A stretch of DNA of 64,000 nucleotides, taken from NCBI GenBank assembly GCA_905339155.1, contig CAJPFJ010000028.1, forward strand, positions 1 to 64,000, read 5' to 3'. How positions within the stretch are numbered: position 1 is the stretch's first letter; every line of letters begins with the position of its first letter. The translations under genes and the position numbers were made by a program. The DNA is from Methanosarcinales archaeon (GTDB taxonomy: Archaea; Halobacteriota; Methanosarcinia; Methanosarcinales; Methanoperedenaceae). Under the pieces are notes generated by a model. The model was not told the DNA's origin, ran no database searches, and was given only the letters and a program-made list of their open reading frames with translations. This document shows, one piece after another, positions 12,624 to 41,467 of this stretch.

Positions 12624-14024
12624 TTATCTTCCCTGAAGCAAAGGAGCTAAATCCCCAAGATCAAAAACCATATAACCCATATCTCTTAATTTTTCCTTAT
12701 CCAAAATCTCCTTTGCGATAATGCCATATCTGATCTTTCGCCTGGCATTATACCAGTTCACAAGCGTTGCTTTTCTCTTTAATTCATCCAATATGATCTC
12801 TGCCTCATTTGAATCCAATGAACTCCACTTACATTCGAAAAGAGATATTTCCTTTTTCTCCTTGTTCAAAGTAATTATGTCTATCTCTTCAGTTTTATGC
12901 CACCATCTGCCAATATCCATAAATTCAAATGGCAGCAAACCTTTTCGGTTCATTTCTATCAAAAATTCGACTGCCTGTTTTTCAAATGCCTTTCCGAAAT
13001 AAGAATTTATATCTTTCATGATAAATTCAAATGCCTTCTCTGGATTGATTTCCAGCAATCGTGAATTCTTGTAAATGAACCTGAACCAGAAATTAAAAAA
13101 ATTATCCAGAAGGAAATATCTGGTGTCTCTGGTGCGACTCATTATCACAGGTTTTTCACGGATTACTATCTCATAATTATTTACAAGCTCGTTAAGGTAT
13201 TTTGATACTGCGCCCGGCTGCAAACCGGTATAATCTGAAATCTCCTTTGGGGTTACATTTCCAGATGAAACTGCTTCCAGTATCGAGAAATAGCTCCTAT
13301 GCTCGGAGCCAAACTCAAGTGTAAGAATGTTTTTTCCTTCCTCTGCCAGTATCTTTGTGTCAATAAATAATTTTTTAAAAGTCTCTACAGGGTCATCAGT
13401 CCCCATCTGCCCGGCAAGAAGAAGATATTTAGGAACACCACCGAAAATAAAATAGAACCTTGAAGCCTCCTCTATTTCTAAATCAAAAAACGCATTCAAG
13501 AACGTGAAACTATGAAAAAAGTCAAATGGTTTTATATTAAAAAGCATCGTAGCTCTTCCAAATAGCGGTTCTTTAGTATCTTGGAATATTTTCTTTATCA
13601 TACCGACATATGAACCGATTATCAGGAACATATGCTGCGATTTAGTATGATTCAAGTCCCAGTACCTCTGGAATTTTGAAAATATGCCGGGATTGACTTT
13701 ACTCAGATTCTGGAATTCATCAAACACTAGAATCAATTTCTCTTCCTGCTCAAAGATCAGATTAAAGAAATCATCCCAGCTATCAATCCGCGGTTTTATT
13801 TTGAGTATGTCTCCAAGCGACTCTTCTATGTCATTAAAAATCATGGCTTCAGGTTTTATTTCTATGAAAAAATAGACAGCTTTCTTTCCTTTTATGAATT
13901 CGCGGCTCAATTCGGTTTTTCCGACCCTGCGGCGGCCGTATACTACGACAAGAGAAGATGATTTTGATTTGTAAATATCTTCCAGTATGCGAATTTCTTT
14001 CTTTCGGTTTATGAAGCCTACCAT
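12624..14024 (-). CDS. archaeal AAA ATPase with DUF234-type C-terminus
   Basis: A 466-aa protein of the archaeal ATPase family. It opens with INRKKEIRIL and Walker A GRRRVGKTEL (about residues 30-39), has Walker B LVFDEFQ, then a winged-helix segment (TPKEISDYTGLQPGAVSKYL). The DUF234 region carries a nuclease-like IDIITLNKEKKEISLFECKW motif resembling the PD-(D/E)XK core (D...E-x-K). Many archaea have several copies, and some accompany mobile elements. It stands alone between a pseudogene and the next regulator. Its cellular role is unknown. Confidence 0.85.
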   Translation of the reverse strand: MVGFINRKKEIRILEDIYKSKSSSLVVVYGRRRVGKTELSREFIKGKKAVYFFIEIKPEAMIFNDIEESLGDILKIKPRIDSWDDFFNLIFEQEEKLILVFDEFQNLSKVNPGIFSKFQRYWDLNHTKSQHMFLIIGSYVGMIKKIFQDTKEPLFGRATMLFNIKPFDFFHSFTFLNAFFDLEIEEASRFYFIFGGVPKYLLLAGQMGTDDPVETFKKLFIDTKILAEEGKNILTLEFGSEHRSYFSILEAVSSGNVTPKEISDYTGLQPGAVSKYLNELVNNYEIVIREKPVIMSRTRDTRYFLLDNFFNFWFRFIYKNSRLLEINPEKAFEFIMKDINSYFGKAFEKQAVEFLIEMNRKGLLPFEFMDIGRWWHKTEEIDIITLNKEKKEISLFECKWSSLDSNEAEIILDELKRKATLVNWYNARRKIRYGIIAKEILDKEKLRDMGYMVFDLGDLAPLLQGR

Positions 14025-18570: not shown

Positions 18571-19356
18571 ATGGCAAGCTACAAGTTGATGGTAAAGGAT
18601 GTTATAAAAAAAGCAGATATTCTTCTTGAGGTAATAGATGCCAGGTTTCCAGACGAAACACGAAATAGCGAAGTTGAGCGAGATATAGCGCGTGCAAATA
18701 AGCCGTTCATAATTGTCATCAATAAATGCGATCTTGTATCAAAGGAAACACTTGAAAAAACTAAATCCCGATTGTCAAAGATCGCACCCACGGTCTTTGT
18801 GTCCAATCAGGAAAAGTTCGGGACAACTTTGTTAAGACATAAGATCCTTGAAATCGCCGGCATAAAAGGGCGTGACATACTGGTGGGTTCCATTGGCTAT
18901 CCCAATACGGGTAAATCATCGGTGATAAATGGCGTATCCGGCAGGCACTCGGCCAGGACGTCCCCGATATCAGGTTTCACAAGAGGAGTTCAACTTGTAG
19001 ATGCAGGTTCACGACTCATGTTCATGGATACGCCGGGTGTAATACCATTTGGTGAGAACGACGAGTATATACAGGGTCTTCTTGGAGTGAAAGATGCAAC
19101 ACACCTGCAGGATAAAATCGGAGTAGCTATGAAGATAATAGAGAAGTTATGTGCCGAGAACAAAACTGCCCTGGAATCCTTATATAAAGTCACAATAGAA
19201 GGACAGGATTGTTATGATGTACTTCTACTTATAGGAAAAAAGTGCAACTTCCTTAAGAAGAAGGGAGAAGTGGATGAAGAAAGAGCAGCTATGAAGATAA
19301 TTAATGATTGGCAAAAAGGGCTGCTTTTGATTTATAGAGTGACGCTTCTGCGGTAA
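18571..19356 (+). CDS. circularly permuted YlqF/RbgA-like GTPase
   Basis: A 261-aa GTPase with permuted motif order. G4 (NKCDL, about residue 51) comes before G1 (GYPNTGKSS, about residue 109), a switch/G2 region (SPISGFTRG) and G3 (DTPGV). Permuted GTPases of this group act in ribosome assembly. A helical C-terminal region follows. The start ATG at 18571 has no SD; a TATA-like region (TTTATTTTC) lies about 40 nt upstream. It is divergent from bioY and its end borders transposon debris. Confidence 0.85.
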   Translation: MASYKLMVKDVIKKADILLEVIDARFPDETRNSEVERDIARANKPFIIVINKCDLVSKETLEKTKSRLSKIAPTVFVSNQEKFGTTLLRHKILEIAGIKGRDILVGSIGYPNTGKSSVINGVSGRHSARTSPISGFTRGVQLVDAGSRLMFMDTPGVIPFGENDEYIQGLLGVKDATHLQDKIGVAMKIIEKLCAENKTALESLYKVTIEGQDCYDVLLLIGKKCNFLKKKGEVDEERAAMKIINDWQKGLLLIYRVTLLR

Positions 19357-19436
19357 ATCCATTTTCATTACTCTTCACCTCCTTTTATCTTATTTATTTT
19401 CAGATTCATCGATCATAGGATGGGAATCTCATTTTT

Positions 19437-19658
19437 ATGGAAGCAACCAACCATGTACCGAGCTACATGTTAACATACATTCAGCTATCGAAAGAGTTTG
19501 TTTACTTGGCCGTTATTATTGATGTTTTCAGTAGACGATGCATTGGCTGGGAACTCAGTCGTCATATCGACAAAGCCTTTAGAAAGGGTACCGCCGAGAT
19601 TCGTCCGAAAATATACTCTAAGGAAACCAATCTCAGCAAATCTTTATTGAACTCGTAA
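19437..19658 (+). pseudogene. transposase fragment (rve integrase-core type)
   Basis: The frame contains LTYIQLSKEFVYLAVIIDVF and SRRCIGWELSRHID. This is the region around the first and second catalytic segments of IS3/IS481-type DDE transposases. The sequence after HID is unrelated, and no other transposase part is present. It marks the left side of the 19.4-24 kb island. Confidence 0.7.
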
Positions 19659-20114
19659 GAGTGTATAAAACTCAGGATTATATAAAATTTGAGGCTTATT
19701 TTTATATTTAAAGGATTAATATTGCTTATTTATTAACTAATAATGGTTTTTGCCACTTTTTACACAGCCTGTCGTACTCACAATACAGAATAATGTTGTC
19801 TATTCAATCGGACTGACATAAATAAGATATAAATCCAAGCTTGCTTCTTCTTTTATGAATAAACTGCATACCTATTCTTCTTTACGATAAGCAACAGTCT
19901 CTGAACATCAGGAGAATATCTGCACATATTTAAACGTGGAAAAAGTGAGGTTTGCTTAGCGTTGTTTTTTTCTCCATTACTACCGGAAGGTCTGCTAGCT
20001 TAAAAATTCCTGCTTTACCTTTTTGGGGGATAGTCAAAAATTGCCATTGAATGTCTCATTAGTAAGAAATAGCATTATGGGCAAGCACTCTATTTTCATG
20101 TACATGAATTTAAC
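19659..20114. other. non-coding stretch left of the peptide-modification locus
   Basis: About 450 nt of AT-rich DNA with frequent stops in all frames. It contains a T-rich tract at about 19960-19980. No gene or RNA could be recognised. It is probably decayed insertion-sequence DNA. Confidence 0.4.
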
Positions 20115-20129
20115 CGAAAGGTTTATCTA
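20115..20129 (+). promoter_or_regulatory. BRE/TATA promoter of the RiPP-like locus
   Basis: CGAAAG (20115-20120) followed by TTTATCTA (20122-20129) fits an archaeal BRE/TATA pair. Initiation about 25 nt downstream would start the transcript just before ATG 20161, leaving a leader of roughly 10 nt. Confidence 0.5.
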
Positions 20130-20160
20130 TAAAAATGTTAAATATTAAATTAGTGGGAAT

Positions 20161-20295
20161 ATGGTTAAAAACGAGAAGTATGTAAAAATTTCAACTCATG
20201 TGGGTTCGATAACGTTTGTCCCTTATTTTACCACAGGCAGTTATAGTGCTATCTCAAATGTTACTGAAAGAGTGGAACCATATGGAAAGCACTGA
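20161..20295 (+). CDS. 44-aa ORF at the head of the RiPP-like locus
   Basis: The first ORF after the promoter, preceded by GTGGGA. It encodes a beta-rich peptide including YVKISTHVGSITFVPYF and ending in VEPYGKH. The family is unknown. It could be an additional precursor, a small partner or the shortened N-terminus of a lost gene. The composition is AT-rich like the surrounding genome, unlike the GC-rich enzyme genes that follow. Confidence 0.4.
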   Translation: MVKNEKYVKISTHVGSITFVPYFTTGSYSAISNVTERVEPYGKH

Positions 20296-20332
20296 GAAGA
20301 ATGAATCTAATTGCAGGGGAGAGAAAAAGTTC

Positions 20333-20452
20333 ATGGAACAAATAGAAGTAAATAAACAATCACCTGGAAAGCTCGGTGAGGTAAGCGCAGCGATTGCAAA
20401 GCCTCCCGAAGGCAGTAGCCCCGTGTACGAAAACTGGCTGTGGGAAAAATGA
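20333..20452 (+). CDS. candidate RiPP precursor peptide, 39 aa
   Basis: ATG 20333 is preceded by AGGGGAGAG at 9 nt; an in-frame ATG at 20282 would add 17 residues. The product has a hydrophilic leader-like part (KLGEVSAAIAKPPEGSS) and a short aromatic C-terminus, PVYENWLWEK. Its stop overlaps the radical SAM start (ATGA at 20449), so it is coupled to an enzyme carrying a PqqD-like leader-binding domain. YEN and WEK fit the aromatic-X-Asn/Lys pattern used by three-residue cyclophane-forming radical SAM enzymes. The precursor role is inference. Confidence 0.55.
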   Translation: MEQIEVNKQSPGKLGEVSAAIAKPPEGSSPVYENWLWEK

Positions 20453-21861
20453 CTCTCATGGCAAAAAATCAAGATTACATCTTGAAACACATAGATCCAG
20501 AAACAGGCTACGGTCTCCTCTATTCCGAGAAGAATGATAGATGCCTTTTTCTGAACACCGTAGCAACTCTACTGTGGACGATGCCCTCCGATTTTTTGGA
20601 TTCCTCCCGGGAGAGCTGCACAGTAGCTAAGAGCATGAAATCACCTAATGCTGCCGATTACGTGGCAAAAGTCGCTGATGACATGCGCCAGAGCGGGCTG
20701 TTCCGTCCCCTAGAGGATGGCGAGGCTCTCAAGGGCGCTTCGATGAATGATGAAGTATATACACTGAACCAGATATATTTTTATGCTGCGATGGAATGCA
20801 ACGCCCACTGCTATCATTGCTATCAGCCAACGACAAAAGTCGATGCTTCCACAGAGCAGAAGAGCAAACGGGTTGGGAAGGAGGTCTTCATGAATTTCAT
20901 TGAGAGCGCCCTGCCCCTTGGCTTGGAGCACGTCAAAATCACAGGGGGTGAACCACTGCTCAGAGGCGATCTCGGAGAGATCATCAGGGGAATCAGGAAG
21001 CTGGGGCCAAGCGTGGCTCTGGAGACCAACGGCTTTCTGATCGATGAAAAGGCTGCAGATATGCTCTCTCAAGGTGAGGTGGAGGTCTCTATATCCCTGG
21101 ATGGGGGGTCGGAGGTGGTGCATGACTCCCTCCGAGGGCTTCCAGGTTCCTTCCAGAGAGCCACCAGAGCGATGAAGATGCTATCTGATAGAGGATGCGA
21201 ACCCCAAGTGGTCATGTCCATCTCCCGAAGGAATCTGGGCGAGGTCGAGAAGACCATAAGCGTGGCCGCATCAAATGGCTGCAGCCTTGTGAAGATCAAC
21301 CCCCTCAGCACATTTGGCAGTGCAGAGAGGCTGAAGGGTAGCGAGATAATACTGACCATAAAAGAGCTCATAGAGATGCGTAAGCGAAGAAAGGATTTGG
21401 AGGCGAAGTATGGTGTATCGCTCTTCTTCGAGTTGCCCCCCTCCTTTGCCTCCCCTTATGAGATCGCCAGTGGCCGAACAGGCATGTGCCCATTTAAAAA
21501 TATGCTGGGTGTACTACCCGATGGATCCATCTCCTTCTGTGGCATTGGGAACATCTACCACGATCTCATCTTTGGCAGGATCGATGAAGAAGGCTTTGAT
21601 ATTCAGCGACTCTGGCAGGAAGCAGAAGCTCTGATCGAGATCCGCACCCTCCTTTCAGGCAAACTGAAAGGGGTATGCGGTCTGTGCGTCTTCGAATCAT
21701 TTTGCAAAGGCTCCTGCCGGGCCCATGCTTATGGAGAGTCAAGGTCATTTCTGGCTCCCGACCCTTTGTGTCAGCGTGCCTTTGAGGAGGGCATTTTTCC
21801 AGATTATTATTTAATTATGATCACAGAGATGATAGGAGGTGAAAAGGAATGGCTAATTTAA
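20449..21861 (+). CDS. RRE-radical SAM-SPASM peptide maturase
   Basis: A 470-aa protein. Residues about 5-90 form a PqqD-like RiPP recognition element (DRCLFLNTVATLLWTM, then VAKVADDMRQSGLF). The radical SAM core has CNAHCYHC (about residue 113) and GGEPLLRGDLGEI. The SPASM domain has CPFKNMLGVLPDGSISFCG, CGLCVFESFCKGSC and a last Cys in DPLCQRA. This architecture modifies ribosomal peptides. The start at ATG 20449 overlaps the precursor stop. Base composition is clearly more GC-rich than the neighbours, with frequent TCC, CTC and AGG codons, suggesting transfer from another lineage. Confidence 0.85.
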   Translation: MTLMAKNQDYILKHIDPETGYGLLYSEKNDRCLFLNTVATLLWTMPSDFLDSSRESCTVAKSMKSPNAADYVAKVADDMRQSGLFRPLEDGEALKGASMNDEVYTLNQIYFYAAMECNAHCYHCYQPTTKVDASTEQKSKRVGKEVFMNFIESALPLGLEHVKITGGEPLLRGDLGEIIRGIRKLGPSVALETNGFLIDEKAADMLSQGEVEVSISLDGGSEVVHDSLRGLPGSFQRATRAMKMLSDRGCEPQVVMSISRRNLGEVEKTISVAASNGCSLVKINPLSTFGSAERLKGSEIILTIKELIEMRKRRKDLEAKYGVSLFFELPPSFASPYEIASGRTGMCPFKNMLGVLPDGSISFCGIGNIYHDLIFGRIDEEGFDIQRLWQEAEALIEIRTLLSGKLKGVCGLCVFESFCKGSCRAHAYGESRSFLAPDPLCQRAFEEGIFPDYYLIMITEMIGGEKEWLI

Positions 21862-22007
21862 TCGGGTCCATGCGCGATATGCTCGATGCCCTGGAGGCAC
21901 AGCAGACACCAGGTGTGGCTGAATTGGCAAAAAAGGTAAGATGCCGATCTGGTAGCTGCAGCAGTGGCACAATCAAGAAGTTAGCAGAAGAAGAGGTCTC
22001 AGAGTAG
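21849..22007 (+). CDS. 52-aa small protein overlapping the maturase end
   Basis: A short ORF with an excellent ribosome binding site (AGGAGGTG, 8 nt spacing) that overlaps the last 13 nt of the maturase gene. It encodes a helical N-terminus (SMRDMLDALEAQQTPGVAEL) and a KVRCRSGSCSSGTIKKLAEE segment with two Cys. It could be a second precursor, a delivery protein or a FeoC-like miniature helix-turn-helix protein. Tight coupling to the maturase is the main evidence of function. A strong hairpin follows 34 nt later. Confidence 0.55.
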   Translation: MANLIGSMRDMLDALEAQQTPGVAELAKKVRCRSGSCSSGTIKKLAEEEVSE

Positions 22008-22040
22008 GTCTCTGCACAGAAAGCCAATGTCATAAATCTA

Positions 22041-22079
22041 AGAGCTTGTCTGAAAATTTAATGTATTTCGACAAGCTCT
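22041..22079. repeat. perfect 10-bp hairpin with IS-end-like sequence
   Basis: AGAGCTTGTC (22041-22050) and GACAAGCTCT (22070-22079) form a perfect stem with a 19-nt AT-rich loop. The left arm plus loop (AGAGCTTGTCTGAAAATT) nearly repeats the sequence at 23404 before the transposase fragment. It is therefore probably an insertion-sequence end that may also stop or pause transcription. Confidence 0.6.
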
Positions 22080-22151
22080 GACAGTACCAATTTACCACAA
22101 CTTATCACCAATGAGAGGAGCTGATTCATTCCAATTTTTGGGGAGCTATTT

Positions 22152-23405
22152 ATGGGACCAAGAGAAGTAGTTATTTTTTGCTCCATGGAGGAGGATCACT
22201 GGGAGCCTACCCTGATACGAGGGGCCTTATGGCATCACGGCATAAGGTCACGGGTCTTAGGTTACAAGAGCTTGGAGAAGGTCGATGAGAATGCCCTCTG
22301 CATAGTCCTCTCAACGCATAAGAAGAAGGAGGCAGCCTTAATATGTCCAGGCGACCTGGCAAAGCCAATAGTGCTGGCAGGTCATGATATCACACAGGAG
22401 TATATTATGAAGAGATTTGCTGTCTCAGAAGACGAGATAGTCGTATACGGAGAACCATACGCCCTCCTCCCGAAGCTGGCGATGGATCAAGATTTCTTGA
22501 GCCAAATGAGAGGAAAGGCGGTCCTTGGACCGCTACTCGATACCCGGGAGTACAGTACATATCCTGCTATAGAAAAAAACGAGTTTGTCTCGATCATGAC
22601 CTCGATGGGATGCATGAAGAGATGCGGTTACTGCACTTACGGCAGGACTTTTTCCGGCCTTTACTCCAAGAAATTTTCAAGAAGATCGCGCCCCTGGAAA
22701 TCGGTTCAAAAAGAACTCATCGATTTCATGGGAAAGGGCATCAACGTCTTCGCCCTGCTGGCAGATCAGTTTCTGTCAGCAGATCCGGAGGAGAACCAGG
22801 AGTTGTACGCTCTGGCCTCAAATTGGGATGTCAAGAAGTATGGGCGGCCCATGCTTACTTTTACCATTTCCCCACTGGAGGTTCTCGGCAATAGATCCCT
22901 TTTGAAGGCCATGTCCATGTTGTTCCAGATCTATCCCAGATACTCCATCGATAGCTTCGATCCGGACACGCTGGCCCTCTTGGACCTGGACTTCGATGCC
23001 TCCCAGGCACTGGAAGCTCTGGAATTCCTGACTCACTTGAGGCTCTCCTTCCGCATCAACTACATTTTCATTCGGCCCGGCATGACCCTCAGACGCATCG
23101 AGAAGGAGCTAAATCACTTCAAATCTATAGCTGCTGCCACCTCTTACATGACCCCCTATGAAAAGCTCCTGCTGGCCTTTGATCTCTTCTCCCATGATCT
23201 CCAAGCAATGAGAGGCACATCGGTATGGGAGGAGAAGAGGGTACATGAGGGATATGAAGCCTGGCTTCAGCCGGAGATATTGAGGGTAATGTCCAAGATC
23301 CAAGAAGCCATGCGGGGGGAGATGGGCCACCTGCAAACCACGAATAAAAGAGATGAACCTTTGCATGCCATCATCGATGCAGGACTGGTGGAGATAAAGT
23401 CTTAG
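22152..23405 (+). CDS. second radical SAM enzyme (class B/B12-like), 417 aa
   Basis: The N-terminal 150 residues resemble a degenerate cobalamin-binding-like Rossmann domain without the classical DxHxxG signature. The radical SAM core follows with CMKRCGYCTYG at about residue 156. The protein ends in a helical region. It starts at ATG 22152 after GGGGAG. Such enzymes methylate unreactive carbons, sometimes in peptide natural products. It follows the maturase and 52-aa ORF on the same strand with a similarly GC-rich composition. It may be a second tailoring enzyme of the same pathway or an independently acquired gene. Confidence 0.75.
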   Translation: MGPREVVIFCSMEEDHWEPTLIRGALWHHGIRSRVLGYKSLEKVDENALCIVLSTHKKKEAALICPGDLAKPIVLAGHDITQEYIMKRFAVSEDEIVVYGEPYALLPKLAMDQDFLSQMRGKAVLGPLLDTREYSTYPAIEKNEFVSIMTSMGCMKRCGYCTYGRTFSGLYSKKFSRRSRPWKSVQKELIDFMGKGINVFALLADQFLSADPEENQELYALASNWDVKKYGRPMLTFTISPLEVLGNRSLLKAMSMLFQIYPRYSIDSFDPDTLALLDLDFDASQALEALEFLTHLRLSFRINYIFIRPGMTLRRIEKELNHFKSIAAATSYMTPYEKLLLAFDLFSHDLQAMRGTSVWEEKRVHEGYEAWLQPEILRVMSKIQEAMRGEMGHLQTTNKRDEPLHAIIDAGLVEIKS

Positions 23406-23422
23406 AGCCTGTCTGAAAATTA
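23403..23422. repeat. insertion-sequence terminal repeat
   Basis: TAGAGCCTGTCTGAAAATTA overlaps the stop of the second radical SAM gene and precedes an IS5-like transposase fragment by 30 nt. Almost the same sequence occurs in the same orientation at 22040-22059. The two copies bracket the radical SAM gene. Confidence 0.55.
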
Positions 23423-23452
23423 GACATTTCTTGACGAATAGATAGTTCGTTA

Positions 23453-23620
23453 GTGTCAGAACAAAATAAACGAACATCTTATCAGATTGACCTATCTGAT
23501 AAAGAATGGCAAAAGGTTGAAAATTGTATTCTAAAACCAAAAACGAAACGAGGCAGAAAGCATAAACATCCTCTGCGGGAAATAATTAAAGGGTATCACC
23601 ACGATGTTAGATCGAGAGAG
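23453..23620 (+). pseudogene. IS5-like transposase, N-terminal fragment
   Basis: The frame reads TSYQIDLSDKEWQKVENCIL and KRGRKHKHPLREIIKGY, the N-terminal DNA-binding part of IS5-family transposases (DLTDxxWxxIxPLLP...GRPRKHPLR). After about residue 56 the homology ends, and the rest of the transposase is missing. The open frame running on to 23926 is unrelated sequence. Confidence 0.7.
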
Positions 23621-23689
23621 TCATGTCCTCCTATCGTCCTTTCTTACACAAGTTCGCCAGTAATATGTGAAACATATTATATATGTCCA

Positions 23690-23960
23690 AAACGTACTTA
23701 TTCGTGCATAAAAAGGACGAGAAGGCAACAGGTTAATTCACGGGAACGGATCCCAAACGCCGATGTTTGTTACACTCTCGACCTACTTTATGTAGGTGCA
23801 AGAATGATTAACTATTCTCGCAAGGATGTTGTATATACGAATGCCCGTCAAGGAATTCTCAATAGAGGTTCGATGCAGCAGGACGCCCAAGTCCTTAGGG
23901 TTTGGGTAGTTCACTCGTGGAGTTGAATTTCCATAGTCTGGCAGGACGAGCAGATAGCCG
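23690..23960 (+). mobile_element. probable IS200/IS605-type end remnant
   Basis: The segment ends with a short hairpin-capable motif GCCCAAGTCCTTAGGGTTTG followed by GGTAGTTCAC. It is read in frame as a peptide ending SMQQDAQVLRVWVVHSWS. This resembles the right ends of archaeal TnpB-type (IS200/IS605) elements, where the tnpB 3' end overlaps the guide-RNA scaffold. No TnpB catalytic motifs remain. The assignment rests on resemblance only. Confidence 0.4.
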
Positions 23961-24408: not shown

Positions 24409-25494
24409 ATGGTTAAAAAAACTGAAGAAATAAAAGATATAAATGAAGAAAATAAGGATATTTTCAAAACATGGACAGACAGCCACAAAGCCGTTTCAAA
24501 AATGTGGGAAGATTCTTACTTAAATCTATACAAGCCCTGGTTTGAATCCACAGAAGCGCTTTTCGGGAAAGCGTCTCTTCTCTCAAAAGATGCTACACCA
24601 GAAAAATATAAGGAATTTTATGGTGAATGGATGAAAACGTCCCAGAACAGCTTCGGAAAATTTTATCAAATCCCGACCCTTGAATCCAGCAAGGAAACAT
24701 ATGAGAAACTCTTGAGTAGCGCAGAGGAATCGAAAAAAATCTACATGTCATGGATCGCCGAATTAGAGGAGAATTCCAGGGCGACCCGCGAAGTACTCCA
24801 GAGCGAACAAGATCCTGCAAAATCTAAAGAAGTGTATGAGATGTGGATCAAGTCATATGGAAAAATGCTTGATGATCTTCTTACACTGCCGATGCGGCAA
24901 AATATGAAAGAGATCTTTGAGAAAGCAGGAGTTCCGGATTTCTATTCAGAGACATTTGAGCAGATATCAAAACTATGGAAAGACTCATACGCAAAACTCT
25001 ATGTGCCGTATATTGATTCTATGCTGAAGCTTTCTGAGAAATCAGCACATATCTCCAGGGGTAATGCAAGCCCTGAAGCCTATAAGGAATTTTATACCTT
25101 ATGGCTGGATGCATATCAGGAGACCTATGGCAAGTTATTTGATATCCAGTCCAGGCAACCTTCAAAAGAAGTATTGGAGTATTTCTTGCACAACGCAAAC
25201 GTTAATCAAAACCTCTACAAGTCATGGATAGCAACCCTTGAAAAACTGTCATTGAAGTCTCAGGAATTATCGAAACGAACATCTGATCCGGAGGCATATA
25301 AGCAATTTTATAATCTCTGGGCAAAAACGTATGAAAAGGCATTTGATAACTTCTTTGAGAATATGCCCACCGCCAGCCCGTTTAAAGAGATTCTGGAGCC
25401 AGTAAAGAATGCTGCCAGGATATACTCTGATACATATACCAGCATATCCAGGAGTTGGGAGAAATCATATCCGTCTTCCACAGGTGCGGTTTAA
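24409..25494 (+). CDS. phasin/PhaE-like repeat protein, 361 aa
   Basis: An all-helical protein built from about five to six degenerate repeats of roughly 55-60 aa. Each contains a (S/A)xxYKEFYxxWxxxYxxxxGK(F/L)-type helix (for example PEKYKEFYGEWMK, PEAYKEFYTLWLD, PEAYKQFYNLWAK) and SAEESKKIYMSWIAELEE. The repeat resembles the PhaE subunit farther down the operon. It likely coats PHA granules or assists PHA synthase. It starts at ATG 24409 after AAGGTGAATT. It shares long nearly identical DNA segments with the next gene, pointing to recent duplication. Confidence 0.75.
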   Translation: MVKKTEEIKDINEENKDIFKTWTDSHKAVSKMWEDSYLNLYKPWFESTEALFGKASLLSKDATPEKYKEFYGEWMKTSQNSFGKFYQIPTLESSKETYEKLLSSAEESKKIYMSWIAELEENSRATREVLQSEQDPAKSKEVYEMWIKSYGKMLDDLLTLPMRQNMKEIFEKAGVPDFYSETFEQISKLWKDSYAKLYVPYIDSMLKLSEKSAHISRGNASPEAYKEFYTLWLDAYQETYGKLFDIQSRQPSKEVLEYFLHNANVNQNLYKSWIATLEKLSLKSQELSKRTSDPEAYKQFYNLWAKTYEKAFDNFFENMPTASPFKEILEPVKNAARIYSDTYTSISRSWEKSYPSSTGAV

Positions 25495-25534
25495 ATATAA
25501 ACAAATTCAAAACAAATTAAACAGAGAGAATAAT

Positions 25535-26218
25535 ATGGATAATAATATGGATAAAAAAATTGAAGAAAGAAAAGATATGAAGGAAGAAAGGAAAGGCAAT
25601 TCTCGGGTAGAGGCTCGTAAAACTGTCTCAACAACTCCATCTTCGTGGTGGGAAGATAGAAAGAAGATAGAGCAAACAGGTCCGAAAGATCAAAAGAAGA
25701 GTATATACGAACCTGAAAAACAGATGGGAGTCAACGTTGAAGAAAAGAAAGATATCTCTCAGATAATGTGCGGTAGCCACACAGCCCTTTCAAGAATGTT
25801 TGAGGATTCATATTTAAGGTTATACAAGAACTGGTTAGAAATCGGAAAATTTTATCAAATCCCGACCCTTGAATCCAGAAAGGAAACATTTGAGAAACTC
25901 TTGAGTAGCGCAGAGGAATCAAAAAGAATCTACATATCATGTATCGCCGAATTAGAGGAGAATTCCAGGGCGGCACGCGAAGTACTCCAGGGCGAAAAAG
26001 GGAATGCAAACCCCGAAGCCTATAAGGAATTTTATACTCTCTGGACAAATACATATGAAAAGTCATTTGATAACTTCTTTGAGAATATGCCCACCGCCAG
26101 CCCGTTTAAAGAGGTTCTGGAGCCTGTAAAGAATGCTGCCCGGATATACTCAGATACATTTACCAGCATATCCAGGATGTGGATTAAATCGTATCCCTGC
26201 TTCACAGGTGCAGTTTAA
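25535..26218 (+). CDS. second phasin-like protein, shortened paralogue, 227 aa
   Basis: The start is ATG 25535 after AGAGAG; an upstream frame from 25409 overlaps the previous gene and is not real. The N-terminal 70 residues are highly charged and low-complexity (EERKDMKEERKG). The rest copies parts of the 361-aa neighbour: KFYQIPTLESRKETFEKLLS, the EELEENSRA region, then the C-terminal NFFENMPTASPFKEVLEPVK block. The middle repeats of the neighbour are absent, so it arose by duplication and internal deletion. Probable granule-associated role. Confidence 0.7.
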   Translation: MDNNMDKKIEERKDMKEERKGNSRVEARKTVSTTPSSWWEDRKKIEQTGPKDQKKSIYEPEKQMGVNVEEKKDISQIMCGSHTALSRMFEDSYLRLYKNWLEIGKFYQIPTLESRKETFEKLLSSAEESKRIYISCIAELEENSRAAREVLQGEKGNANPEAYKEFYTLWTNTYEKSFDNFFENMPTASPFKEVLEPVKNAARIYSDTFTSISRMWIKSYPCFTGAV

Positions 26219-26240
26219 GATTGGAAAATCCAATCTTAAA
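26214..26240 (+). terminator. 12-bp perfect hairpin after the phasin genes
   Basis: TTTAAGATTGGA (26214-26225) and TCCAATCTTAAA (26229-26240) pair perfectly around a 3-nt loop. The left arm contains the stop codon of the second phasin gene. It could end or attenuate transcription before phaE. Confidence 0.5.
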
Positions 26241-26545
26241 TATCCTTGCAAACTTGCTTGGAAGGAAAGGATTACCTTTTATAGTTAATTATTAAAAAAA
26301 TTGCAGCAAAGTTATTTGATAATTATTAATATAGCAAGAGACATCATAGCAAGATAAGTTATATATATGCGAATGGGTATAAAACATTCAGCGAGGGTTA
26401 AGAATCACAGATATATTTTATGTTTTGATGGATATTCCAAAATTATCACATGGTGGCTTGATATTAAAAACCAGGAACAATAGAAGATTCAATCAAGCTA
26501 AACTGCCCGCGTTTTGATAAAAAATAAATTAAAAAGTGAAATATT
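26241..26545. other. gap inside the PHA locus
   Basis: About 305 nt without a gene. The stretch is AT-rich with TATA-like runs (TTATATATATG at about 26359, AAAAATAAATTAAAAA at about 26520). It could hold a second promoter for phaE-phaC. Nothing else was recognised. Confidence 0.4.
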
Positions 26546-26641
26546 ATGGTTAAGAAAACAGAAGAAAGAAAAGATACAACAGAAATAGAAATGGGTAATA
26601 TCCGATTCGCGTTCAGCTTCTGCATGCCTGGGGAAGAATAA
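26546..26641 (+). CDS. 31-aa remnant of a third phasin-like gene
   Basis: ATG 26546 is preceded by AAGTGAAAT. The product begins MVKKTEERKDTTEIE, nearly the same start as the 361-aa phasin (MVKKTEEIKDINEE). It then reads an unrelated NIRFAFSFCMPGEE tail and stops 3 nt before phaE. It looks like the surviving 5' end of a third paralogue. It may still be translated as a leader peptide for phaE. Confidence 0.5.
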   Translation: MVKKTEERKDTTEIEMGNIRFAFSFCMPGEE

Positions 26642-26644
26642 AAA

Positions 26645-27226
26645 ATGAGCTCTCAAGGTCAAAAAAAAACTGGAAATATGGAAAAATCCAGTTTTGAATC
26701 CACACAGGAATTTTATGATGAATGGCTAAAAACATACAAAGCCACAATGGGTAAATTCATTGAGATGCCTGCTGTAGGCCCGGCACGTGAGAAATCTGAG
26801 AAAATGATGAAGGGTTTCTCAACCTTTATGAACCTTTATGCAGCAGGAATGGATACCAGTTCCAACTTACAGGCCGTATTCATGGAAGCAATGAGAAAAG
26901 TCCAGGAAAAAACTGGAACGGATATGGATGGGGAGATAACTCCTGAGAAATATAAGGAATTTTACAATACCTGGATCCAGACATATAGCGATACCTTCAA
27001 AGAATATTCCAAATCAGATCATTTTGTAGCAGATATGGGGAAACTGAATTCCCATTATTTAGATTTTCAACAATACCAGAAAGATATGCTTGAGGAGAAT
27101 TACCTGAAACCAATGAATCTCCCTACAAAGACGCAGATCGACGAGATCAATAAAGAGTTGTATTTTCTCAAAAAAGCGGTAAAGGAACTGACCAGACAGA
27201 TCAAAGAACTGAAAGAGAAAAAATAG
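26645..27226 (+). CDS. phaE: PHA synthase class III subunit PhaE
   Basis: A 193-aa helical protein with PhaE-type repeats (STQEFYDEWLKTYKATMGKF, PEKYKEFYNTWIQTY) and a C-terminal coiled coil (QIDEINKELYFLKKAVKEL, ending RQIKELKEKK). PhaE pairs with PhaC in class III synthases and is needed for activity. It is shorter than bacterial PhaE (about 350 aa), as in haloarchaeal-type enzymes. It lies 19 nt upstream of phaC. Confidence 0.85.
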   Translation: MSSQGQKKTGNMEKSSFESTQEFYDEWLKTYKATMGKFIEMPAVGPAREKSEKMMKGFSTFMNLYAAGMDTSSNLQAVFMEAMRKVQEKTGTDMDGEITPEKYKEFYNTWIQTYSDTFKEYSKSDHFVADMGKLNSHYLDFQQYQKDMLEENYLKPMNLPTKTQIDEINKELYFLKKAVKELTRQIKELKEKK

Positions 27227-38591: not shown

Positions 38592-39182
38592 ATGAGCGAC
38601 TTATTCGATAAAGTTCTATCAAAAACAAATTTATGGGCTGATATTTCAATAGGTATATTTTTAATTTCTTTTTTATCTGTTCCTGAAAATAATTTGGAAT
38701 TATTCTTAACTGGAATAATAATATTTAGTGTTTTTCTATCATTTATTCTTGAAAAAATATGTAATATCGAAAGTTTATGGAAACTTCTATTTCTAAAGCA
38801 ATTGGCAGATATTGAATTTAATAACAGGAAATTTACGGAAAATCCATCTTTTTTTGATTTACAAAAAGATGCAAAAGAGGAAGTAAACAAACTTGATGAA
38901 CACATAAAAGAATTTTTTTTAGAATATATGGAAATTTTAATGCTTTTTTTCATAAATTGTTTAATATTATTATTATTATTATTCAAAGTAATTCCATTAA
39001 TAACTTTTACTTTTTTCAGTTTAAGTATTAATAACTTGTTATTGATTTTTTTGGTTTTATTATTAAATATTTTATTTCTATATAATGCAAAATCTCAAAT
39101 AGTCAAAGATTTCTCAATGTACAAAGAAATTTACAAAAAATATGGAAAGCTGAGAAATCTCAGTTTACAAGGAGAAGACTGA
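38592..39182 (+). CDS. membrane protein of an AT-rich putative defence trio, 196 aa
   Basis: Hydrophobic segments at about residues 16-34, 38-54, 112-133 and 137-158. A soluble, charged helical region lies between the pairs (about residues 60-108) and a basic tail follows. Composition is strongly AT-biased (poly-Ile/Leu/Phe/Asn/Lys codons), unlike nrdD before it. It lies 6 nt upstream of the Rad50-like ATPase. In an ATPase-based defence system such a protein could be the membrane-acting effector; this is inference. Confidence 0.7.
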   Translation: MSDLFDKVLSKTNLWADISIGIFLISFLSVPENNLELFLTGIIIFSVFLSFILEKICNIESLWKLLFLKQLADIEFNNRKFTENPSFFDLQKDAKEEVNKLDEHIKEFFLEYMEILMLFFINCLILLLLLFKVIPLITFTFFSLSINNLLLIFLVLLLNILFLYNAKSQIVKDFSMYKEIYKKYGKLRNLSLQGED

Positions 39183-39188
39183 TATATT

Positions 39189-40988
39189 ATGACATCTGAG
39201 CCATTTAAAATTCAAAAAATTAGCATAAATAAATTTTATGCTGAAGAATATATAGGTCCAAAAAAGATAATTGATGAGAAGTCATTATTCATATATGGAA
39301 CTAATAATACAGGTAAATCTACAAGTTTCGATGGAATTATTTATTCAATTTTTGGGTGGGATTTCATAGATAGAAAATCGAAAATAGCTGATACAGAAAT
39401 TGAACTCAAGAATAACGAATTTCTATTAAAAATTCAAAGAAAATATAATTCTGAGCCCCTAATGGAGATAAGAAAAATTTCTGGAGAAAGAAAAGGGGAA
39501 AGAGCTGAAATAAAAGGCAAGGACAACATTTATAATAAATTGTTGGAACTCATTGGAATCCCTAAATCTCCAACTCATGCAAAAAAATTGATTGCAGCAT
39601 TGACAATTCCACAACGTGACGACGATTCACTTTTGAGAAAATATAATGATAGAGATTTAGAATATATTATCTCTACCTATTCTAGTGGATTAGAAGCCAT
39701 TAGTCGAATAAGGGAAATTGAAAAAGAAGTTGAGATTAAGAAAAGCGATATTGAAAAAATTAAATATAAAAAACTTGACATTGAAAAGGAAATAAATGAT
39801 ATCGAACTTGAAGAGAAAAGAAATAAGCATTATATTTCAGAATTAAAAGAATTTATTCAACAATATGATTCTAAAGATCTCTTTAAAACCATAGAAATTT
39901 TAAATAAAAATAAAGAAATTAATGAAACTTTGATTGAACTCAATTCTAAAAGAACGGGGTATTATGACAAAAAGTATAAAATCAGCAAAGAAATTAGCGA
40001 TCATAAGCAATATTATAAAAAAGAATTAATTGATGCAATTAAGAGCACATTATCCGTTCTAGTTTGCCCGGTTTGTGAAGACGATTTAGATCTTAACAAA
40101 ATTGAAAATAGAAAAAATAGAGGTCTTTGTCCTTTTTGCGGTTCGAATCATAATCCTGAAAAAGTTTATAAAATTATTGAAAATGAAATCAATGTTTCTA
40201 ATAAAAAATTTGATAGCCTTGAAAAAGAGGCAAAAGAAATCGAACATAAAATCAAAGAGATTGATGAAAAAAATAAAGAAATCAGTAAAAAAATTCTTAT
40301 TTCCATTATCAATCCTGTAATAATACGAAGTACAAACGAAACAGTAGATGGAATAAGGGAAAAATATGAACAATATAAAACAAAAATAAAACAATATGAA
40401 ACAGATATAGCAGAAAACGAAGAAAAAATTATTGAAAATAAAAAATATATTAAAAAATTAGATGATGCAACTAATGAAATTTCTGAAAATATCATCAAAT
40501 TAGAAAGAGAAAGTGTCAATTTGAAAGATAAAGAAACTAAAGAAGGAGTATATAAATTTAACAAAGAACTTAATAAAAATTATTCAAAGTTGATAAGTCC
40601 TCAACCATATAATTTGGAATTAGATTCTGGAAAAATAATTTTACATAAAAATGCAATTCTAAAAGATTGTTCAGATAGAGATTCCCTTGGTTATTCTGAA
40701 AGAAAATTGATTGATTTTGCATTATGGACTACTTTTCTCTCAATTAACAAAATTAATAACAATGTCAGATTAAATTTTGGTATAGTTGATGATATATTTG
40801 AAAATATTGATAACACAGAAATAAAATGGAAGGATAATTTATTATTAATGTTAAATAATATTAAAGAAAAATGTCAGTTAATTATTTTCTCAATAGATAA
40901 GGAGATTAACAAAAGCATTAATTTAGATATTCTATATCCATTACAGTTCCAGAATTTAGGTTACTTTGTCCAAAAAGAGGAAGAATGA
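39189..40988 (+). CDS. Rad50/SMC-like ATPase with zinc-ribbon hinge, 599 aa
   Basis: Walker A is GTNNTGKSTS (about residues 37-46). A Q-loop region follows, then long coiled coils (about residues 165-260 and 325-440). Between the coils lies a four-Cys zinc ribbon, CPVC...CPFC (about residues 293-319), instead of the single CxxC hook of Rad50. The ABC signature region is LGYSERKLIDFALW, and Walker B/D-loop is FGIVDDIFENID. This architecture fits SMC-like ATPases of ABC three-component or Lamassu-type defence systems. Coding DNA is very AT-rich. Its stop overlaps the next start. Confidence 0.8.
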   Translation: MTSEPFKIQKISINKFYAEEYIGPKKIIDEKSLFIYGTNNTGKSTSFDGIIYSIFGWDFIDRKSKIADTEIELKNNEFLLKIQRKYNSEPLMEIRKISGERKGERAEIKGKDNIYNKLLELIGIPKSPTHAKKLIAALTIPQRDDDSLLRKYNDRDLEYIISTYSSGLEAISRIREIEKEVEIKKSDIEKIKYKKLDIEKEINDIELEEKRNKHYISELKEFIQQYDSKDLFKTIEILNKNKEINETLIELNSKRTGYYDKKYKISKEISDHKQYYKKELIDAIKSTLSVLVCPVCEDDLDLNKIENRKNRGLCPFCGSNHNPEKVYKIIENEINVSNKKFDSLEKEAKEIEHKIKEIDEKNKEISKKILISIINPVIIRSTNETVDGIREKYEQYKTKIKQYETDIAENEEKIIENKKYIKKLDDATNEISENIIKLERESVNLKDKETKEGVYKFNKELNKNYSKLISPQPYNLELDSGKIILHKNAILKDCSDRDSLGYSERKLIDFALWTTFLSINKINNNVRLNFGIVDDIFENIDNTEIKWKDNLLLMLNNIKEKCQLIIFSIDKEINKSINLDILYPLQFQNLGYFVQKEEE

Positions 40989-41467
40989 AAAGTTTTCAAT
41001 TATTTCAAAACAGAAATTATTGGGTTTTAGAAATCTTAAATTATTCAAATAAAACTATTGATGAGGGTATCTCAGGCAAACTCAAAATGGAAAAATTATC
41101 GGCTGAGGTCAGAGAGGGACTAATCAAACAAGGAAATGAAAATCCCTGGAGATTGATAAGAGACTTTAGAGGACCAACTGAACCGGGTCTATCGAGATTG
41201 ATGATAAGCTTTCAAAAATTAGGGTTAGTAGAGATTGAGCAGATTAAAAGTCAAGGTGTAAAATATTTAATTACAGAAAAAGGAATTAAAGTAAAAAACA
41301 GTCTTGACAAATTTTTCTCTAAAATTAATCCAATTGAAATCCAAATCAAAGAGATCATAGAAGAGGAAGTTCTAAAAAAATGGATTAAAAAAACCGGAAA
41401 TGAAATTGTAGAATCTTCCGAAATAATTCAAAATATGAAGAAAGAAAATTTAGGAAAACGATTGTAA
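40985..41467 (+). CDS. winged-helix protein coupled to the ATPase, 160 aa
   Basis: Start ATG 40985 overlaps the ATPase stop (ATGA). It has an N-terminal winged-helix-like region (FQNRNYWVLEILNYS, PGLSRLMISFQKLGLVEIEQ, YLITEKGIKV) and a helical Lys/Glu-rich tail. It resembles the small 'middle component' proteins that connect ATPase and effector in ABC three-component systems. It could also be an autoregulator. AT-rich like its two partners; the trio forms one operon. Confidence 0.7.
   Translation: MKSFQLFQNRNYWVLEILNYSNKTIDEGISGKLKMEKLSAEVREGLIKQGNENPWRLIRDFRGPTEPGLSRLMISFQKLGLVEIEQIKSQGVKYLITEKGIKVKNSLDKFFSKINPIEIQIKEIIEEEVLKKWIKKTGNEIVESSEIIQNMKKENLGKRL

Follow-up and report, generated by a model that had tools for sequence, protein, structure and literature searches.

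Two kinds of described system are among the closest to the locus at positions 20115-23405 of the window, by which we mean the whole 64,000-nucleotide stretch of contig CAJPFJ010000028.1 of a Methanosarcinales archaeon, and both bear on its reading as a pathway for a ribosomally synthesised and post-translationally modified peptide (RiPP). For the SynChlorMet-type cassettes, models are available for ScmF, ScmE, ScmD, ScmC and ScmA, and nine neighbourhoods examined here (L021-L029) carried ScmE-like, PqqD-like or Cys-rich-peptide genes to varying degrees; in the two that were model-checked, ScmF, ScmE, ScmD and ScmC (L022) and ScmA (L027) scored above the cut-offs. The second kind comprises SkfB, SuiB and CteB, in which a RiPP recognition element (RRE), a radical S-adenosylmethionine (SAM) domain and a SPASM domain follow one another; all three carry RREs, and CteB is a sactipeptide enzyme. 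Little is known of radical SAM peptide pathways in archaea, and a literature search for RiPPs in Methanoperedens returned no article whose title or abstract dealt with them.

A first-pass annotation had reported at this locus a promoter, short open reading frames (ORFs), a radical SAM enzyme of 470 amino acids (aa), a coupled 52-aa ORF and a second radical SAM enzyme of 417 aa, and had proposed a RiPP pathway in an archaeon; all of these elements were found where it had placed them, every one on the + strand (Table 1). The explanation that we favour, and consider moderately probable, is a small, laterally acquired RiPP cassette with a host-type archaeal promoter, in which the 52-aa peptide is modified by the 470-aa and then by the 417-aa enzyme. 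None of the related genomes covered by the searches had this combination of a peptide-modifying radical enzyme, a likely substrate of 52 residues and a second radical enzyme.

The 470-aa protein matched PF04055 at 6.7e-23, and its best NCBIfam model was TIGR04251 (ScmF), at 246 bits where the cut-off is 400, so that the profile search proposed for both enzymes in the first-pass annotation named a nearest family for this one, below its cut-off, and left the 417-aa protein below the cut-offs of all families. Alignment with 14 Halobacteriota ScmF-like proteins, to which the identity was 27-36%, revealed that the radical SAM motif CX3CX2C (C117, C121 and C124) and all seven SPASM cysteines (C347, C364, C410, C413, C419, C423 and C441) are invariant, the latter having the classical spacing; the Pfam SPASM model scored below its cut-off (16.5 versus 21.5 bits). 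Beyond the ScmF-type region, the protein has an extra N-terminal domain of about 100 aa. The AlphaFold model had a confident core, and its N-terminus, at a predicted local distance difference test (pLDDT) score of 33-52, ran in the order βββ-ααα, by which an RRE is defined (PMC12710340). In a Foldseek search with this model, the nine best chains were those of SkfB, SuiB and CteB, at 13-17% sequence identity in the alignments. These results suggest that the N-domain is likely an RRE, as judged from the model and its chain-level matches, and a peptide-modifying role for the enzyme is quite probable.

It is very improbable that the enzyme instead acts on a non-peptide, such as a tetrapyrrole as with AhbD and NirJ, the 52-aa ORF then encoding an accessory protein. 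The heme b synthase and NirJ2 models do come next after ScmF, at 131 and 104 bits, but ScmF scores 115 bits higher than the former, and the RRE-like domain also speaks for a peptide. In addition, the enzyme grouped in a maximum-likelihood tree with ScmF and a relative from Rhizobium (100/98), separately from ScmE and from AhbD-like proteins, the host's own among them. Its branch is long, so that its precise position outside the clade of archaeal ScmF is less certain.

The comparison with SynChlorMet cassettes made in the first-pass annotation proved apt, ScmF being the nearest family, all catalytic Cys being kept and a CxxG peptide being encoded nearby; it did not extend to membership. ScmF stayed at the 246 bits given above, whereas the control from L022 reached 539; the ScmE model (TIGR04250) did not match the 417-aa protein and gave 92 versus 400 bits with the 470-aa protein; the ScmD model (TIGR04248) gave no match, the N-domain included (control, 107 bits); and the ScmC model (TIGR04249) gave none in the six island ORFs scanned (control, 248 bits). 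The ScmA model (TIGR04252) matched none of the 39-, 44- and 52-aa ORFs at E-values up to 1, which is a weak test, as the model also misses putative ScmA peptides (one of three tried was above the cut-off, the other two being missed or below it). Membership of a SynChlorMet cassette was rejected on these results. Two further differences are that the RRE-like domain is fused to the enzyme here, versus a separate ScmD, and that, with no match to ScmE, ScmC or ScmA, the locus has a B12-type radical SAM gene instead. The likeness to SkfB, SuiB and CteB is in the domain order; the low identity, the poorly determined N-domain in the model and a candidate substrate unlike theirs set the locus apart from them. 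The proposal of a RiPP-type cassette is well supported by an RRE-like domain, radical SAM and a full SPASM, and from its sequence the locus appears to be a variant, in minimal form, of a RiPP-type maturase cassette, for which substrate and chemistry are predicted.

The 52-aa ORF is preceded by a GGAGGTG ribosome-binding site, shares 13 nt (21849-21861) with the 470-aa gene at the 3′ end of the latter and encodes two Cys in total, each in a CxxG motif, within the segment RCRSGSCSSG. Among 219 window ORFs of 30-110 aa with at least two Cys, it was unique in having Gly at +3 of every Cys, and residue shuffling gave a probability of 0.004 for CxxG on both Cys, the comparison having been made post hoc, after the motif was noticed. 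In eight putative ScmA peptides, chosen by eye from the L021-L029 neighbourhoods, Gly was at +3 for 27 of the 43 Cys and at +3 or +4 for 36. The 52-aa ORF is accordingly put forward as the best precursor candidate.

The other short ORF singled out in the first-pass annotation, at 20333, has lost ground. In the sole relative found (genome G009, a congener), the 44-aa ORF at 20161 was frameshifted and about the first 17 codons alone of the 39-aa ORF at 20333 were conserved, and because of this frameshift and partial conservation both are poorly supported as precursor genes. It is nevertheless conceivable, if unlikely, that the 39-aa ORF is the precursor, its end VYENWLWEK offering aromatic-X-X triplets (YEN and WEK) in which the maturase would join the aromatic ring to the third residue. 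This ORF is coupled to the 470-aa gene by an ATGA (20449-20452), in which its stop overlaps the ATG start of the enzyme at 20449, its aromatic end falls in the foreign, GC-rich part, and Aro-Xaa-Asn motifs have been reported in strained cyclophane RiPPs (PMC9062424). However, the N-terminal half is of host type, and in G009 it stands ahead of unrelated genes, 16 kb there showing no radical SAM gene, which argues that the leader is not tied to the enzyme; and the enzyme is nearest to ScmF, not to known cyclophane synthases. The 39-aa ORF is hence a less likely precursor than the 52-aa ORF, although YENWLWEK, at its foreign end, could be a precursor's tail.

The 417-aa protein, which has its own GGGGAG, matched PF04055 with 28.5 bits, just under the cut-off of 29.5, and has an intact CX3CX2C as CMKRCGYC. 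Its weak NCBIfam matches were mostly to B12-type enzymes and far below every family cut-off, and its best relative in the host's own genome, a protein of 528 aa, clearly carries a B12-binding domain. Alignment by hhalign with three B12-binding radical SAM proteins gave an E-value of 2.2e-9 over residues 18-341; the N-terminal region is shorter than theirs and a B12-binding domain was not recognised, residues 1-143 having no PF02310 match, although the profile alignment to the PF02310-bearing family does span this region. By its sequence, the protein is a divergent relative of B12-binding-type radical SAM enzymes. The AlphaFold model was useless (pLDDT 40), and no credible match to a solved structure and no match in plasmids was found. 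Searches gave no match at 1e-20 in 294 other genomes of the phylum; the 231 genomes searched from another class had none at 1e-8, and within its own class only weak matches were obtained.

The most likely course of events can be outlined for the favoured cassette. Ribosomes would start on the leader ORF at 20333, stop at the ATGA and re-initiate on the 470-aa maturase, coupled translation being suggested by the two overlaps (ATGA and 13 nt). The RRE-like N-domain of the maturase may then bind the 52-aa peptide encoded directly behind it, and the radical SAM/SPASM core may modify RCRSGSCSSG, most likely by a Cys-centred cross-link such as a thioether, given the CxxG common to the putative SynChlorMet precursors. 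The 417-aa enzyme might add a further change, possibly methylation. As no protease or exporter gene lies within the island, trimming and export, if any, would fall to host proteins.

Several points weigh against this explanation. Residues 1-100 of the 470-aa protein matched no family model, their profile comparison with ScmD-like proteins was weak, and the confidence of the structural model is low in this very part. The searches found no homologue of the 52-aa ORF, and the post hoc character of the CxxG comparison, the by-eye choice of the ScmA set and the missing protease and transporter genes count in the same direction.

Table 1. Features of the island and its borders in the window (positions in the window; strand as read)
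Feature	Position	Strand	Basis or remark
Integrase-core (rve) transposase fragment, upstream side	19437..19658	+	PF00665 1.6e-7
AT-rich host-type promoter and leader, including start of 39-aa ORF	20051..20384	+	74% identity over 350 columns to G009:C177; GC 33.5%
39-aa leader ORF, C-terminus VYENWLWEK	20333..20452	+	ATGA overlap with 20449; first ~17 codons host-type, remainder in foreign DNA
470-aa radical SAM/SPASM enzyme, N-terminal RRE-like domain (residues 1-100), ScmF relative	20449..21861	+	TIGR04251 246 bits, Cys motifs, tree, model and Foldseek
52-aa ORF, best precursor candidate, CRSG and CSSG motifs	21849..22007	+	Overlap, ribosome-binding site, CxxG pattern
Hairpin, 10-bp arms, between 52-aa ORF and second enzyme	22041..22079	.	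Shares GAGCYTGTCTGAAAATT with 23405-23421
417-aa radical SAM enzyme, divergent relative of B12-binding type	22152..23405	+	PF04055 28.5 bits; hhalign E 2.2e-9 over 18-341
Insertion sequence (IS) end and IS4/5-type transposase fragment, closes island	23405..23926	+	PF13340 6.8e-5 (below cut-off); shared 17-mer

The DNA around the island is common to many genomes of the same family, with identity up to 91%, whereas the region 19342-23603 of the window had no match to congeners among the matches listed. The two enzyme genes and the 52-aa ORF have a GC content of 50%, versus 41% for the window, and a GC content at third codon positions of 0.53-0.62, that of most host genes being near 0.40, and transposase fragments bracket the island (19437-19658 and from 23453). 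No homologue of the 470-aa enzyme reaching 1e-40 was present in 33 other family members, and the strong Halobacteriota matches covered the radical SAM/SPASM part alone. Matches in phages were weak, and so were those of the ScmF alignment in viruses; scans of 84,980 genome species and of viral contigs found no close kin of either enzyme, the exact 8-residue seeds used in both excluding close kin alone, so that moderately diverged bacterial relatives could be missed. Viperin was rejected as an identity, its models matching weakly and through the common radical SAM core alone. A protein of Rhizobium plasmid p42d matched the ScmF region at 28%, had no RRE-like domain and lay among different neighbours. 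From the foreign GC content, the flanking transposase fragments and the absence from the 33 other family genomes, the enzyme genes look laterally acquired; of the earlier wording "in an archaeon", the archaeal host stands, and the host is probably a methane oxidiser, to judge from kinship tallies and polyhydroxyalkanoate (PHA)-type genes probably Candidatus Methanoperedens. The assembly is a draft of 79 contigs with 5.4% contamination, and the host-type sequence on either side argues for a true place of the island in this genome.

The Rhizobium gene (L030 6007-7275, in R. etli p42d and in other Rhizobium plasmids too) is ScmF-like, with 169 bits to TIGR04251, stands without SynChlorMet-type neighbours and is near an adenine phosphoribosyltransferase gene.

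A 17-bp sequence, GAGCYTGTCTGAAAATT, occurs in the window at 22042 and 23405 alone (0.02 matches expected), as two direct copies (22042-22058 and 23405-23421) around the second enzyme gene, of which one abuts the IS4/5-type transposase fragment and the other lies in the hairpin. A role for this hairpin as a terminator was rejected, as it lacks a T run and shuffled sequences fold as well as the 144-nt stretch does (z-score -0.54); it is a probable IS end remnant. Since it is flanked on either side by transposase fragments, contains an IS-like hairpin, has neither protease nor transporter and was found in one genome alone, the locus might be taken for a decaying or silent island whose genes, acquired by transposition, no longer yield a product. 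We hold this to be improbable, because none of the three genes is disrupted, their catalytic motifs and ribosome-binding sites are in place, and the promoter is conserved in a congener.

The TATA-like promoter, TTTATCTATAAAAA at 20122-20135 with CGAAAGG just before it, was kept in that congener, where the match of the promoter-leader (G009:C177:14885-15230; L085, L086) takes in the TATA box as well as the ribosome-binding site and, from the 39-aa ORF, MEQIEVNKQ. In the window, the GC content rises from 33.5% to 55.9% at 20385; from this rise and the G009 match it follows that the 39-aa ORF begins in host-type sequence, which is joined to foreign DNA. In G009, the promoter-leader stands before a GC-rich (58.5%) HEAT-repeat gene, with a HESRH-motif protein also there, and no radical SAM gene was evident among the ORFs of the 16 kb around it. 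A real match was found in G009 alone among the 33 other family genomes; short common stretches in G015 and G002 were inspected and looked like chance. The promoter-leader had no match in plasmids, phages or viral contigs, and an Rfam scan gave nothing in the leader and one sub-threshold chance match elsewhere.

It was also noticed that in two genomes of this genus the same AT-rich promoter, ribosome-binding site and leader-ORF start thus precede foreign genes that are GC-rich and unrelated to one another, which may have arisen by promoter capture or at an insertion hot spot. The sharing hints at how acquired genes become expressed in these archaea. A bolder proposal, which we put forward tentatively and regard as rather unlikely, is that the locus represents a new RiPP class, in which an RRE-fused ScmF relative and a B12-type radical SAM enzyme would jointly tailor one RCRSGSCSSG peptide; a Methanoperedens-type archaeon would have taken the pathway over and set it behind a host promoter-leader that is also found before other foreign genes in a relative. 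If the favoured explanation is true, this compact cassette would make it easy to learn how ScmF-type enzymes act on CxxG peptides.

Downstream of the island, a 240-bp stretch (23604-23844) had 88-89% identity to stretches in three congeners, distant there from the rest of the locus, and is probably a mobile-element remnant. Three consecutive phasin-like ORFs with shared repeats, followed by a PHA-synthase-like gene, occupy 24409-27226, and related stretches recur many times in congeners. Another acquired island is probably present at 38592-41467, where three ORFs, one of which resembles an SMC-like ATPase by eye, have a GC content of 22-29%, versus 41% for the window. Finally, ATPase-like proteins with near-identical starts (MVGFINRK...) are encoded at 12624-14024 of the window and at L086 3547-4959, on the G009 contig that carries the promoter-leader.

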